Program-made: the position numbers and the translations under genes | Source: Agathobacter sp. | Lineage (GTDB): Bacteria > Bacillota > Clostridia > Lachnospirales > Lachnospiraceae | Length of the DNA stretch: 49,868 nucleotides | NCBI GenBank assembly: GCA_017481285.1 | Contig: JAFUPI010000014.1 | Location: 1 to 49,868 of the forward strand | Reading direction: 5' to 3' | Shown here: positions 1 to 46,620 of the stretch, piece by piece | Numbering within the stretch: the first letter of the stretch is position 1 | How the letters are laid out: every line of letters starts with the position of its first letter | Notes under the pieces: generated by a model | What the model was told of the DNA's origin: nothing | What the model saw: the letters and a program-made list of their open reading frames with translations, nothing else | Database searches by the model: none

Positions 1-492
1 CCCTTATTTTTATATTTCGAAATATATATGTCTCTGTATTTTGCGTGCATTTTCTCTCGGTTAAGAAAAACGCTTTATTTCTAAGAAGCACTCTGCTTGC
101 TTTTATGATTTATTCTGTCTGTCAAAAGTTTTACAATCTGCGCCACTTTATCCGTGTGCAACATGACACCCTTACGAGGATTTCGTAGTTTCTCTTATGT
201 GGGCAGGATTATAAAATGTCATGAGTCACGCAAACTGTCTGAGGTGCCGCACTTGCACCGAGTTTTTTGCATGGCTCATGTAATATCAACTTTATAAGAC
301 TGCCCACATTAGAGAAACAGAAATAAGAGTACGGTGTCTGTTGCACACGGACAAAGTGGTGCAGATAGTAAAAGCTATGCCAGACACAAAATTTAAGCAA
401 GCAGAGTGTTTCAAGAAATAATAGCGTTTCCCTTAAAAGTTCGAAAATGCACACAAAATACAGAGACATATTTATTTCAAGACATGAAGAAA
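1..492. repeat. Giant imperfect palindrome, copy 1
   Basis: The stretch folds on itself almost end to end. Bases 31-36 (TCTCTG) pair with 461-466, 199-206 (GTGGGCAG) with 300-307, and GGTGC at 243-247 with GCACC at 255-259, giving an axis near base 250. The left arm (1-198) matches 49543-49740 with about 12 mismatches and no net gap. The right arm is more diverged from the left arm. The outer stem clearly begins near 17-25 and ends near 473-480, with weaker complementarity out to about 492; the left boundary may lie outside the window. It contains no credible protein gene. It could be a MITE-like non-autonomous element or encode a long structured RNA; nothing here identifies a mobilising enzyme. 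Confidence 0.85.
199..307. repeat. Central segment of palindrome copy 1
   Basis: This 109-bp core is bounded by GTGGGC and GCCCAC. Its reverse complement matches 49741-49848 at roughly 92 percent by eye with one single-base gap, whereas the outer arm matches in the direct orientation. The core is therefore flipped between the two copies. Confidence 0.75.
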
Positions 493-42380: not shown

Positions 42381-44162
42381 TTACACCACCTGTGCCATAT
42401 AGAGTCTATAATATGCTCCGCGTTTCTCCATAAGTTCCGCAGGTGTACCTGACTCTATAATTCCATTGTCACTTACTACAAAAATGCGGTCTGCATTCTG
42501 AATCGTTGACAATCGATGTGCAATCACAAAGCTGGTACGCCCTTTCAAAAGTGCTGCGATACCTTCCTGCACCATGCGTTCTGTGTGGGTATCGATACTG
42601 GATGTCGCCTCGTCCAAAATCAAAATCTTCGGCATAGAAATCATGGTTCTGGCAAAAGCGATAAGCTGTCGTTGTCCAATGGAAATCCCCGCACCACGTT
42701 CGCGAAGTTCCGTATCGTATCCCTTTTCCATTTTCATAATAAAATCATGAGCATTTACTGCTTTGGCTGCAGCAATCATTTCTTCTTCTGTTGCATCCAG
42801 TTTACCATACATGATGTTTTCACGTATAGTCCCTTGGAAAATAAAATTATCTTGTGTCATAACTCCCATCTGTTTTCGCAAGCTGTGAAGCGACACTTCT
42901 TTCAAATCATATCCATCAATTAAAATCGTACCCTTTTGAATATCATAGAATCGGCTGATGAGGTTTACGATAGTTGTTTTACCTGCACCTGTTGGTCCAA
43001 CCAGTGCAATGGTTTCCCCTGGCTTTACAGAAAAACTTACGTCTTCTAATACCTTTGTTTCTGCTTCTGTTCCTTCATCATAGGTAAATGACACATGTTC
43101 AAATGAAACTGCCCCTTCAATATCTGGCAGTTCTATCGCATTTGACTCATCTGCAATATCTGGCTCTGTATCCAGAATATCAAAGATACGTTCTGCCGCA
43201 GAAATATTTGTCACCAACTGATTATAGAAATTACTTAGGTTCATGATTGGATTCCAAAACATATTGATGTATGTTCCAAAAGCAACCAACAAACCTACTG
43301 AAATTTCTGGAAATCCGATATATTTTACTCCAACGAGATAAAGCATCATCGCACTAAATCCCCAGCAAAAATCAATCGCTGGTCCAAACATATCTGCAAT
43401 GCGGCAAGCATTGATAAAGGAATCCTTGTGTTCCTCTGTTAATTCATCAAAGGTTTCCTTTGTCTCTTCACTGGCACAAAGACTCTGTACTACACGAATC
43501 CCCGCAATATCCTCATGCACAAAGGCATTTAGATTGGAGGATTTCTTGCGGTAATCATGCCATCTTTTATGTGAAAAACTCTGAATTGTAAACAACGCCA
43601 CCATCATAAGTGGAATCGTACAAAGAGCGGCCAGCGACAGTCTCCAGTCCTTCAGAAACATGATGACAAGTACGCCCACCAAAGTAACAAAATCTGGAAT
43701 CAAGGTAGTTACCGCATTGGATAACACATCTTTCAAAGAATTCACATCCCCAATGATTCTTGCCAATATTTTTCCGGTTGGTCTGCTATCGAAAAATGCA
43801 AAAGACAGCTTTTGAATATGCTCATAAAGTTCCTGACGAACCTTTAGAAGTATTTGATTGGAAATCAAAGACATCACATACATTCGCACCTTTACCATGA
43901 TGATATAAATGATATTTAGCACCATTGCAAAAATACCAAGTTTCAAAAGTCCATCCATATTTCCTACTCCAATGTAATCGTCGATCGCACTTTCGATTAA
44001 CAATGGATTTACAAGGCTGATGGCTACTGTTACACCCATGCAAAGCAGTACGCCAATTACACCTTTTATATGATTTTTCAAGTATGAGAATAAACGCACA
44101 ATGACTTTCCATTTGCCCTGGCTTTTTACCTGTTCATCCTCACGAAAGGAATTTACTGCCAT
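42381..44162 (-). CDS. ABC exporter half-transporter with consensus Walker B (BmrD-like)
   Basis: A 593-residue membrane protein with a six-helix exporter domain (about 25-320) and a C-terminal ATPase. Walker A is GPTGAGKTT, Walker B ILILDEATSSID with the catalytic Glu, and switch His in IAHRLS. The signature is the degenerate ISIGQ instead of LSGGQ. Its partner gene is directly upstream, overlapping by ten bases. This combination is typical of heterodimeric multidrug exporters such as BmrCD, LmrCD and TM287/288. Confidence 0.93.
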   Translation of the reverse strand: MAVNSFREDEQVKSQGKWKVIVRLFSYLKNHIKGVIGVLLCMGVTVAISLVNPLLIESAIDDYIGVGNMDGLLKLGIFAMVLNIIYIIMVKVRMYVMSLISNQILLKVRQELYEHIQKLSFAFFDSRPTGKILARIIGDVNSLKDVLSNAVTTLIPDFVTLVGVLVIMFLKDWRLSLAALCTIPLMMVALFTIQSFSHKRWHDYRKKSSNLNAFVHEDIAGIRVVQSLCASEETKETFDELTEEHKDSFINACRIADMFGPAIDFCWGFSAMMLYLVGVKYIGFPEISVGLLVAFGTYINMFWNPIMNLSNFYNQLVTNISAAERIFDILDTEPDIADESNAIELPDIEGAVSFEHVSFTYDEGTEAETKVLEDVSFSVKPGETIALVGPTGAGKTTIVNLISRFYDIQKGTILIDGYDLKEVSLHSLRKQMGVMTQDNFIFQGTIRENIMYGKLDATEEEMIAAAKAVNAHDFIMKMEKGYDTELRERGAGISIGQRQLIAFARTMISMPKILILDEATSSIDTHTERMVQEGIAALLKGRTSFVIAHRLSTIQNADRIFVVSDNGIIESGTPAELMEKRGAYYRLYMAQVV

Positions 44163-45877
44163 ACACTCACCTCCCCATATTGTACCACATAGGTATCATA
44201 ATAAAGCCCCTTCTTTTCCAGAAGTTCTTCATGTGTACCACGTTCTGCAATTCGTCCGTTCTCCAAATAAATGATTTCATCCGCATGGCGAACCGCAGAA
44301 ATTCTATGTGCAATAATAATTTTTGTTGTTCCTTTTAATTGTTCTAATTCTTTTTGAATCTCACGCTCTGTTTCCATATCCAGAGCAGAAGTAGAGTCAT
44401 CCATTACCAGAATTGGGCATTCTTTAGATATTGCCCTTGCAATGCTGATTCGCTGTTTTTGCCCACCAGAAAGACCTACTCCACGCTCTCCGATTACAGT
44501 TTCATATGAATGTTCCAGTTCTTCAATAAAGTTCTTTGCCTGAGCAAATGCAGAAGCCTTCTGGATTTCTTCCAATGACATAGCTTGACGTTTTCCCATT
44601 TTGATATTCTCTGCAATGGTGTCTGAGAAAAGAAACACATCCTGCATAACCACTGCATTACTACCACGCACCTGCTGGAATGATAAATCTTTGATATTTA
44701 CACCATCCAAACGCACTTCACCCTCTACTGGATCAAAAAATCTCTGCATGAGATTTACGATTGTGGATTTTCCAGAACCCGTTGCACCCATAATGCCCAG
44801 TGTTTTTCCTTGTGGAACGGTGAAGGAAATGTCCTCTAAAATCTCCTTCTCGTCTACCGAAAAACTTACATGTTCAAAAGTAATTTCACCCTTTACTTCA
44901 TCCAAAATCACTGGTTTTTCCGATTCTGTTAAATTGGCCTGCTGCTTCACGATCTTGTCGATTTTCTTCTTGGAAGCAAGTGCACTTGAGACATCATTTG
45001 CAAGCCATCCCAACATCTGCATTGGCCATGTACAGTTACGGCTATACTCTACATAAGCCACCAACGAACCAATATCCATTTCCTGTTTTAACACGGAAAA
45101 TCCTCCCAAAATGGTACATACAACTGGGAGCATTGTACCTACAAACTGGAAAAATGGATAATATCTTACCAATGTTTTTGACTGCTGCATATTCAGTTCA
45201 TAATAACGTTTATTGTGCGATAAGAATTTTTCTATTTCAAACTTCTCTCTCGCAAAGGCTTTTACGGTACGAACACCAGCTAAGTTCTCTTCTGCCACCG
45301 TAGTAAGAATAGCGTTTTCTTCACTGATATCCTCGTACACCTTATCTAATTTTTTCTCCATAATAATTGCCACTGCTGCACTGGCAATCATAAATGCGAT
45401 TGGTACAAAAGTAAGCTTCCAATTCAAATGAAACATACAGTACAAAACACTTGCTACATGTACCACCACTTCAATCACCAACATGCCGACAAAGCCCAAA
45501 ACATTCCAGATTTTGTCCACATCATCTTTTACACGAGCCATAAGCTCGCCCGTATTCGTCTGATCAAAATAGTCTATCGACAATCCCTGCACATGAGAAA
45601 AAATATCCCTTCTCATTTCAGTTCCAATCGTGGCTCCATTTCTATCAAATGTAAATTCTTTTATGTATCCAAATATGGCTCTTCCTACACCACAAACTAC
45701 AATTGCAGCAAGAAGCATTGGTAAGCGATTCATATCACCACTTACAAAAACTTCATTCACAATCACTTTTGTGATTTGCGGATATAACATATCTAATCCA
45801 ATTGCAATAAACATACTAATCAGTGCCAGCAGATAAAATGGCCAATGCTTCAGCACATATATATGTAATTTTTTCAT
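44153..45877 (-). CDS. ABC exporter half-transporter with degenerate Walker B (BmrC-like)
   Basis: A 574-residue half-transporter. GGAGGGTATT precedes the start at 45877. Six membrane helices lie in about 15-310. The ATPase has Walker A GATGSGKST, canonical signature GLSGGQKQR, but Walker B reads LVMDDSTSALD, with Asp where the catalytic Glu should be. Together with the partner's ISIGQ signature this makes one composite ATP site degenerate and the other active. A leader ORF and terminator precede it, suggesting attenuation. Confidence 0.93.
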   Translation of the reverse strand: MKKLHIYVLKHWPFYLLALISMFIAIGLDMLYPQITKVIVNEVFVSGDMNRLPMLLAAIVVCGVGRAIFGYIKEFTFDRNGATIGTEMRRDIFSHVQGLSIDYFDQTNTGELMARVKDDVDKIWNVLGFVGMLVIEVVVHVASVLYCMFHLNWKLTFVPIAFMIASAAVAIIMEKKLDKVYEDISEENAILTTVAEENLAGVRTVKAFAREKFEIEKFLSHNKRYYELNMQQSKTLVRYYPFFQFVGTMLPVVCTILGGFSVLKQEMDIGSLVAYVEYSRNCTWPMQMLGWLANDVSSALASKKKIDKIVKQQANLTESEKPVILDEVKGEITFEHVSFSVDEKEILEDISFTVPQGKTLGIMGATGSGKSTIVNLMQRFFDPVEGEVRLDGVNIKDLSFQQVRGSNAVVMQDVFLFSDTIAENIKMGKRQAMSLEEIQKASAFAQAKNFIEELEHSYETVIGERGVGLSGGQKQRISIARAISKECPILVMDDSTSALDMETEREIQKELEQLKGTTKIIIAHRISAVRHADEIIYLENGRIAERGTHEELLEKKGLYYDTYVVQYGEVSVWQ

Positions 45878-45953
45878 AATACCCTCCATTTCGTAGTTAC
45901 AGTTTCGGTGTCTTGCAGCATTTTATCTTCACCTGACACAGGATGATGAAAAT

Positions 45954-45988
45954 AAAAAAGCTCGGATAAATTTAGAATTTACCCGAGC
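45954..45988 (-). terminator. Strong terminator in the leader of the ABC exporter operon
   Basis: On the minus strand GCTCGGGTAAATT pairs with AATTTATCCGAGC (13 pairs, one G-U) across a 3-base loop (45988-45960), followed by six T (45959-45954). It lies between the leader promoter and the first exporter gene, and no other gene intervenes, so exporter transcription must pass it. Confidence 0.88.
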
Positions 45989-46031
45989 ATATCTGCTTCA
46001 TAAAATGAATATGCCAAAAACACATCCACGC

Positions 46032-46109
46032 CTGATTCAATTTTTAAGATTAACAAATACTATCTTTGAAAAGTTCGCTACATTTTTCAAAACTTAAAAA
46101 TCAAATCAG
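46032..46109 (-). promoter_or_regulatory. Large hairpin over the leader-peptide stop codon
   Basis: CTGATTTGATTTTTAAG (46109-46093, minus strand) pairs with CTTAAAAATTGAATCAG (46048-46032) with a two-base mismatch. Inside it, TTTGAAAA/TTTTCAAA (46091-46084 with 46072-46065) forms a second stem. The leader stop codon (46108-46106) is in the outer stem, so a terminating or stalled ribosome would change the fold. Confidence 0.65.
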
Positions 46110-46180
46110 CTATACATAGACACCGAGGTAATTTCATGATTCATATTTTGTTTCATTGTATTAAATGTAGTGTTAATCAT
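46106..46180 (-). CDS. Leader peptide upstream of the ABC exporter
   Basis: A 24-codon ORF reading MINTTFNTMKQNMNHEITSV then SMYS, with GAGG eight bases before the ATG. It follows a promoter and precedes a large hairpin and terminator. Bacillus subtilis bmrCD is controlled by translation of a similar small upstream ORF (bmrB), which senses ribosome-targeting drugs. No sequence similarity is claimed; the assignment rests on layout. Confidence 0.55.
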   Translation of the reverse strand: MINTTFNTMKQNMNHEITSVSMYS

Positions 46181-46228
46181 TATTTTTACCTCGCTTTCTT
46201 TTATATTTGATTTTGTTACTACTCTTCT

Positions 46229-46257
46229 AGTAAAACACTTCTACCATTAATTGTCAA
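46229..46257 (-). promoter_or_regulatory. Promoter for leader peptide and ABC exporter
   Basis: On the minus strand TTGACA (46257-46252), 17 bases, TTTACT (46234-46229). The -10 is imperfect. The untranslated leader from here to the first exporter gene is about 345 bases, far longer than any other leader in the window. Confidence 0.6.
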
Positions 46258-46319: not shown

Positions 46320-46511
46320 ATGAGTAATTCAAGCAACAATAGTTCAAAAAAATCTGAAGCGATGAATCGTTTCAAACAGGAATGTGCCAACGAAGTAGGT
46401 GTAAACCTTAAAAGCGGTTATAATGGTGACTTAACATCTAGAGAAGCCGGCTCTATCGGTGGTGAAATGGTTAAAAAGATGATTAAACGCCAGGAAGATC
46501 AGATGAAATAA
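46320..46511 (+). CDS. Alpha/beta-type small acid-soluble spore protein
   Basis: Spore DNA-binding protein of 63 residues. The family motif is clear: NRFKQECANEVGVNLKSGYN in part, then GDLTSREAGSIGGEMVKKMI. These proteins saturate spore DNA and protect it from UV and heat; the Glu-Val junction in CANEVGVNL matches the GPR protease site region. AAGGAGGTGAACTAA precedes the ATG. Expression should be forespore-specific (sigma G), but I could not point to a convincing promoter. Confidence 0.92.
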   Translation: MSNSSNNSSKKSEAMNRFKQECANEVGVNLKSGYNGDLTSREAGSIGGEMVKKMIKRQEDQMK

Positions 46512-46541: not shown

Positions 46542-46620
46542 GAAAATCCCCCTTTATTTTATGTAATTGTCGCTGTATTAGCATAAGGCTTCCAATTACA
46601 TAAAATAAAGGGGGATTTTC
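46542..46620. repeat. Perfect 28-bp inverted repeat between SASP and DJ-1 genes
   Basis: GAAAATCCCCC... at 46542-46569 is exactly repeated in reverse complement at 46593-46620, with a 23-base spacer. Both ends carry AAAA/TTTT, so it can act as a bidirectional terminator for the convergent SASP and DJ-1 genes. A perfect 28-bp stem is much longer than a terminator needs. Confidence 0.9.

Follow-up and report, generated by a model that had tools for sequence, protein, structure and literature searches.

The DNA analyzed here is a stretch of 49,868 nucleotides from an Agathobacter sp. genome (contig JAFUPI010000014.1), which we call the window and whose positions are used throughout. Its minus strand encodes two ABC transporter genes preceded by a promoter and a short leader. 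The promoter (46229..46257) consists of a -35 element TTGACA at 46257-46252, a 17-nt spacer and a -10 element TTTACT at 46234-46229, from which transcription probably starts near position 46222. A leader ORF of 24 codons plus stop (46106..46180), encoding the peptide MINTTFNTMKQNMNHEITSVSMYS, follows a Shine-Dalgarno (SD) sequence, GAGGTAA, in the segment CGAGGTAA (46186..46193). A 78-nt hairpin begins at the leader stop codon (46032..46109; folding z of -2.7), and an intrinsic terminator of 13 pairs followed by a T-run (45960..45988; -15.7 kcal/mol, z of -7.5) starts 118 nt past the last base of that codon; the leader as a whole has a folding z of -4.7. Beyond the terminator lie the overlapping genes for exporter subunits A (44153..45877) and B (42381..44162), in each of which Pfam identifies ABC_membrane and ABC_tran. 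As read from the translations, the Walker B motif ends in DD in subunit A (MDD) and in the canonical DE in subunit B (LDE), and a DD in place of DE marks the degenerate ATP-site half of heterodimeric ABC exporters. Sequence matches of the subunits include TM_0288 and the BmrC and BmrD chains (YheI, YheH), and with its adjacent half transporters, one carrying a putative degenerate ATP site, the pair appears to fit the heterodimeric exporters represented by BmrCD and TM287/288. The promoter, the leader ORF with its own ribosome site, the terminator and an exporter of this type are all present as the original prediction had them.

That prediction also proposed that the end of the leader ORF can pair with the 5' arm of the terminator to form an antiterminator. 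Absent from it was a second pairing: CGAGGTAA (46193-46186), the SD segment, perfectly complements TTACCTCG at the end of the ORF over 8 bp. Four segments may therefore be distinguished. Segment 1 is the leader SD, for which we propose an anti-antiterminator role; segment 2 is the ORF tail TTACCTCGG (46123..46131), a potential switch strand able to pair with segment 1 or segment 3; and segments 3 and 4 are the two arms of the terminator, the first of which, GCTCGGGTAAATT (45976..45988), contains the GGGTAA that pairs with segment 2.

The arrangement is conserved among same-genus orthologs of the exporter. An ortholog of the exporter was found in 38 of 62 same-genus genomes, its own included, and since three are cut by contig ends (G019, G040, G047), 35 were assessable, the window among them. 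All 35 have a leader ahead of the exporter, defined as an SD of the form G[AG]GGTAA with TT[AG]CC[TC]C lying 35-130 nt downstream of it. Outside known elements this pattern matches four times, apparently at two sites each counted on both strands, in 1.24 Mb of sequence with the two strands summed, or about 0.0013 times per 400 nt by chance. The leader lies no more than 400 nt from the exporter in 33 of the 35; a GNAT-like-looking gene intervenes in G027 and other DNA in G032. A DNA search with the leader matched 18 of the 62 genomes, its own included, some of the matches, such as L023, L029 and L033, being partial and lacking the leader. In 31 of the 35 same-genus elements, the window included, a promoter of the form TTGAC[AT]-16..18-T[AT][TA]A[CTA]T stands no further than 110 nt from the leader SD, against an expectation from shuffles of about 0.08; our promoter consensus scan, which requires A at position 2, had overlooked the leader promoter. 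The hairpin at the stop codon fared differently. It exists in the window, as predicted, but its presence is not constant across the family, and we rejected it as a core part: for the stretch between stop codon and terminator (27-125 nt) in 34 same-genus elements, z was -2.0 or lower in 11 (window -2.6, G042 -2.7, G012 -2.1), several of which probably contain the true terminator, a later one having been picked, and it was above -1 in 20.

From inside and outside the genus, 136 elements were collected in all, of which 116 remained after removal of exact SD-to-tail duplicates and 115 after removal of L099 (Balneolaceae), a chance match of the named-genome pattern scan. All 115 have a leader ORF that stays open through the tail, where about 27 would be expected; the start codon was picked from among candidates so as to let the ORF span the tail. 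The remaining two frames are open in 18 and 19 elements. Starts are ATG in 114 of the 115, placed 10-15 nt after the first SD base, and the ORFs run from 20 to 45 codons with variable peptide bodies. In 108 of the 115 the tail ends up 8-26 nt ahead of the stop codon, so that a terminating ribosome would cover or adjoin it. One possible reading of such a leader would be nascent-peptide arrest, with the conserved C-terminal ITSV acting as a stalling peptide. ITS(V) is indeed the commonest reading of the tail, (I)TS occurring in 94 of the 115 elements, but the same bases are read as LPR in 15 and as YLG in 6. It is thus the RNA that is kept and not the peptide, which led us to reject peptide conservation and leaves arrest by the nascent chain largely refuted. 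Nor does the window peptide contain a stall motif of the RLR type.

The SD:tail helix was followed in an alignment of 77 sequences, termed A2. There 92.7% of its cells are paired, as opposed to 28-52% when the helix is slid, and both sides have changed at four of the eight pairs, a count that none of 500 shuffles reached, these shuffle statistics ignoring kinship among related sequences. A2 comprises 74 of the 115 elements chosen by diversity and spacing, minus L113, in which no terminator was found, plus L086, L089, L094 and L097; the latter four, together with L091, are family loci that slipped past the regular expression and stand outside the 115-element set. The double changes include GGGGTAA/TTACCCC (SD/tail) in G059 and GAGGCAA/TTGCCTC in L080, and L190, outside A2, carries GAGGTAG/CTACCTC. 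The 80 named loci carry almost no information on this covariation because the search pattern fixed both the SD and the tail, and the signal accordingly comes from the genus and from rows found by a search model that itself favours the helix. The covariation in relatives that the prediction called for is thus found over the 77 sequences, but with the genus alone it is weak, showing one double change and a score equalled or exceeded by 176 of 500 shuffles. Taken together, the comparisons show the SD to be the best conserved partner of the ORF tail, rivalling the terminator 5' arm for it. They also bear on the idea that termination is controlled by a protein or small RNA that acts in trans by binding the tail TTACCTCGG. 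So short and strongly conserved a stretch could be a binding site, but the complementary double changes in G059 and L080 preserve the pairing while changing the letters, and the ORF is kept open through the tail in every element, making such a factor very improbable.

The competing pairing, between the tail and the terminator 5' arm, was assessed in the 101 of 115 elements for which an automatic picker found a terminator of -11 kcal/mol or better. In some rows, such as G003, G004 and G027, it chose a later hairpin although one with CCGTGGT is visible, errors that work against the pairing claimed here; the 5' arm often reads CCGTGGT(A/G)A or CCCCAGGTAA. The mean tail:arm duplex is -10.0 kcal/mol, compared with -6.2+-0.3 for shuffled arms, -6.4+-0.3 for 132 background terminators and -7.6 for the 3' arms. 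Arms swapped between elements give -9.0+-0.15, and on average the tails therefore fit their own arms best. The position immediately after the tail is also paired in 68 of the 101 elements, mainly as T-G (20), T-A (18), G-C (13), C-G (12) and G-T (4), and pair types vary outside the invariant tail:arm core. Taken singly, 38 of the 101 beat 95% of the background arms, and the window is not among them: its duplex of -9.4 kcal/mol is equalled or bettered by 18% of the 132 background arms. The predicted pairing therefore exists, but in the window alone it is no better than chance, and its support comes from the 101 elements jointly. Over that set, the complementarity points to a mutually exclusive antiterminator that involves the leader ORF.

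Ensemble folding was used to ask how the two pairings respond to ribosomes while the 3' arm of the terminator has not yet been made. For the window, SD:tail pairing reaches 1.00 without a ribosome, whereas tail:arm pairing reaches 0.98 when a ribosome sits on the start region and 0.96 when it sits at codon 3; both pairings drop to 0 when a ribosome covers the tail. Further along the ORF, at codon 5 or 8, a ribosome that leaves the SD exposed fails to free the tail, so that switching would require stalling at codons 1-3 or queuing of ribosomes. For a ribosome at the stop codon the proposed mechanism calls for a low value, but tail:arm pairing comes to 0.32 in the window and to 1.00 in G016. Across the 101 elements, SD:tail exceeds 0.5 without a ribosome in 73, and tail:arm exceeds 0.5 with a ribosome on the start in 67 (28 with shuffled arms); both halves of the switch work in silico in only 43, and 22 elements pass 0.5 for tail:arm with no ribosome at all. 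G042 fails, with tail:arm at most 0.04, and L078 attains 0.55 in a single state. When the 3' arm is added, the equilibrium favours the terminator in all states tested for the window, and in six of seven fully tested elements, the window included. Antitermination would therefore have to be kinetic, the outcome of a race during transcription.

The dominance of the terminator at equilibrium is equally what one would expect if the conserved pairing only tuned translation of the leader by occluding its SD and the terminator were an ordinary one ending a small transcript, and SD:tail is both the best conserved and the best predicted helix. Yet such an arrangement leaves without explanation why the terminator arms match the tail considerably better than shuffled arms or background terminators do, and match their own tails better than those of other elements. 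In addition, a crude scan, which overlooked the leader promoter too, found no promoter between terminator and exporter on the minus strand. We consider this explanation quite unlikely.

We instead favour, with a probability of roughly 0.75, a ribosome-mediated transcription attenuator of four segments in which the SD serves as segment 1 and which is de-repressed by ribosome stalling. The parts, their pairings and the open ORF are conserved; the order of events and the trigger can be pictured as follows. When no ribosome occupies the leader, segment 1 would pair with segment 2, leaving the terminator free to form and the exporter off. During normal translation, ribosomes would cross segment 2, pause at the nearby stop codon and cover or disturb segment 2, and the terminator would again form. 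A stall in the first codons, or a queue of ribosomes over the SD, would hide segment 1 and leave segment 2 free to capture segment 3 as it leaves the polymerase, before segment 4 is made. The terminator would then be delayed or prevented, and the exporter operon transcribed. The attenuation proposed in the original prediction is partly upheld, in that a leader ORF with alternative terminator and antiterminator pairings is conserved, but its account lacked the best conserved partner, the SD. Ribosome-targeting antibiotics may be the natural cause of stalling, and drug export the purpose of the response. Alternatively, the same attenuator could sense a general slowing of translation or a shortage of amino acids instead of drugs. 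The leader peptide is variable and has no fixed stall motif, any early stall would do, and codons for N, K, T and M seem, by eye, abundant in many leaders. The window leader, however, lacks a run of one regulatory amino acid, and most of the genes seen behind the element encode exporters or RsgA-like GTPases, along with some GNATs and a MATE pump, rather than biosynthetic enzymes; we regard a sensor of this kind as having a small but real chance of being correct.

Attenuation of the trp operon likewise employs four mutually exclusive segments, paired as 1:2, 2:3 and 3:4. The element described here shares that logic and differs in that its segment 1 would be the leader SD and not a set of regulatory codons. 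By analogy, it is best read as working like the ribosome-mediated transcription attenuation of bmrB-bmrCD, mef(E)L and rli80-hflXr, and, given differences in the length of the ORF, the place of the terminator or the stall motif, it appears to form a family separate from these, characterized by the SD as anti-antiterminator. According to the portions of the published account that describe its leader (PMC4191407), bmrB of Bacillus subtilis resembles the window in having a translated leader with alternative structures ahead of a heterodimeric ABC exporter, one homologous to BmrC/BmrD in the present case. It is a 53-codon ORF with its terminator inside the coding region and is under AbrB control, unlike the window, where the ORF has 24 codons, the terminator lies beyond the stop and the SD would act as segment 1. 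The match in layout to bmrB that had been claimed for this locus consequently does not hold. In the same portions of that work (Reilman 2014), blocking leader translation lowers expression and abolishes induction by lincomycin, which is what termination by default on an untranslated leader would predict. The rli80-hflXr leader of Listeria, as outlined in PMC6310831, has an anti-anti-terminator, an antiterminator, a terminator and a short ORF (14 codons), and it controls a paralog of a ribosome GTPase (HflXr, of HflX), as our element would in the case of RsgA. Its RLR stall motif is lacking from the window peptide and its hosts are others, a separation made on the published description. The leader of mef(E)/mel, in the parts of PMC4335068 that deal with it, combines the 8-codon peptide MTASMRLR of mef(E)L with inverted repeats, a terminator and a competing anti-attenuator in a 327-base leader, and its RBS is needed for induction; it has larger hairpins than the present element, and those parts mention no SD:tail 8-mer. 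Within the open-licence literature searched, we recognised no description of an SD:tail leader element. In Rfam, which covers riboswitches, T-boxes and r-protein leaders, the window had no match at gathering score, and a permissive search returned six sub-threshold matches (17-28 bits against gathering scores of 59-118), none of them credible.

Search models extended the element through the family and into the order. Model R1 matched 27 of 397 family genomes, its own included and two of them false (L087, L093), and model R2 matched 28 of 344 order genomes, including six from two other families. All six of these have the short ORF; a GNAT-RsgA-type gene follows in five, Pfam confirming RsgA in G535 and the remainder being named by resemblance, and an ABC exporter about 650 nt from the element follows in L190. 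Matches outside the family at the class level (L201-L205, five of five) and at the phylum level (L208 and L209, two of two) run into long ORFs and were rejected as false, and across 398 phylum genomes R2 gave no real match except in two genomes of its own family, with weak filters that make this result a lower bound. The family, order, class and phylum tallies are all lower bounds, with 10-12 candidates scored per genome; with 67 scored in the genus, 41 of 62 genomes match, including all 35 known, 27 of which are in the model. The pattern scan of named genomes gave 81 stretches. The 80 listed come from Roseburia, Agathobacter, Butyrivibrio, other Lachnospiraceae and some records named Oscillospiraceae, Ruminococcus or Clostridia, apart from the chance match in Balneolaceae. 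One exact pattern run against viral contigs matched none.

The genes behind the element indicate a scope much wider than the heterodimeric exporter that it was correctly predicted to precede. Among 80 unique elements from outside the genus, 73 have an ORF of at least 80 aa within 1.1 kb, and 48 of these ORFs resemble the window exporter. By reading, the other 25 comprise 13 RsgA-like proteins (alone or behind a GNAT domain), three GNATs and nine that are something else or unclear. Pfam assigned RsgA_GTPase (155-172 bits) to all four of the 13 submitted to it (L103, L105, L128, L149), with a GNAT domain in L103 as well; it found GNAT in L125, a weak nucleotidyltransferase match in L111 and, about 430 nt from the element, a permease in L126. 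Thirteen further same-genus places, also classified by reading, include eight of RsgA type, one exporter, one 81-aa protein, two unassigned and one MATE efflux transporter (L218, Pfam MatE). RsgA-like genes, named mostly by reading, in some cases from a GNAT N-terminus alone where the locus ends, and with Pfam on four, were seen behind the leader in L103, L105, L127, L128, L131, L132, L149, L150, L153, L168, L172, L176, L182-L189, L191, L193-L198, L200, L210, L211, L213-L215, L219, L221 and L222. In six of six tested genomes with a leader-linked RsgA, a second, higher-scoring RsgA lies elsewhere, and the leader-linked copy is therefore taken as a paralog. These paralogs are candidate ribosome protection or rescue factors; among the papers that the literature searches listed, none showed an RsgA paralog conferring resistance under the control of a leader.

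One attractive, if tentative, possibility is that this frame-independent, SD-based element defines a ribosome-stall regulon across the Lachnospirales, made up of exporters, a MATE pump, GNATs and second copies of RsgA alone or fused to GNAT, with the leader-controlled RsgA proteins being new rescue or protection factors that stand to RsgA as HflXr does to HflX. We think it somewhat less probable than its negation. If the attenuation reading is correct, an RNA sensor of ribosome distress is common to gut bacteria such as Roseburia/Agathobacter, Butyrivibrio and their relatives and works without a dedicated stalling peptide, because any early stall would do, and its genomic occurrences provide a ready list of candidate drug-response genes, the RsgA paralog included. 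The principle would be a simple one, in which a single SD both launches translation of the sensor ORF and, when nobody translates, holds the switch off.

Several minor observations were made along the way. The leader stands before short proteins of 94 aa in L109 and 81 aa in L212 that both start with MNW and look alike by eye; neither has a Pfam match. In L073, a leader-like element lies about 0.5-0.6 kb upstream of what we take to be an NFACT/RqcH-like gene, too far for control to be assumed. A gene for an alpha/beta small acid-soluble spore protein (SASP) is divergent from the window leader (46320-46511, plus strand), and SASP-like neighbours also occur in several relatives (L018, L025, L026, L031). 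Finally, between the SASP gene and a DJ-1/PfpI gene lies a perfect 28-bp inverted repeat (GAAAATCCCCC...; 46542-46620), which is the sole such pair in the genome (71% complete) with up to three mismatches allowed, and which for that reason probably acts as a terminator in both directions and is not a mobile repeat.
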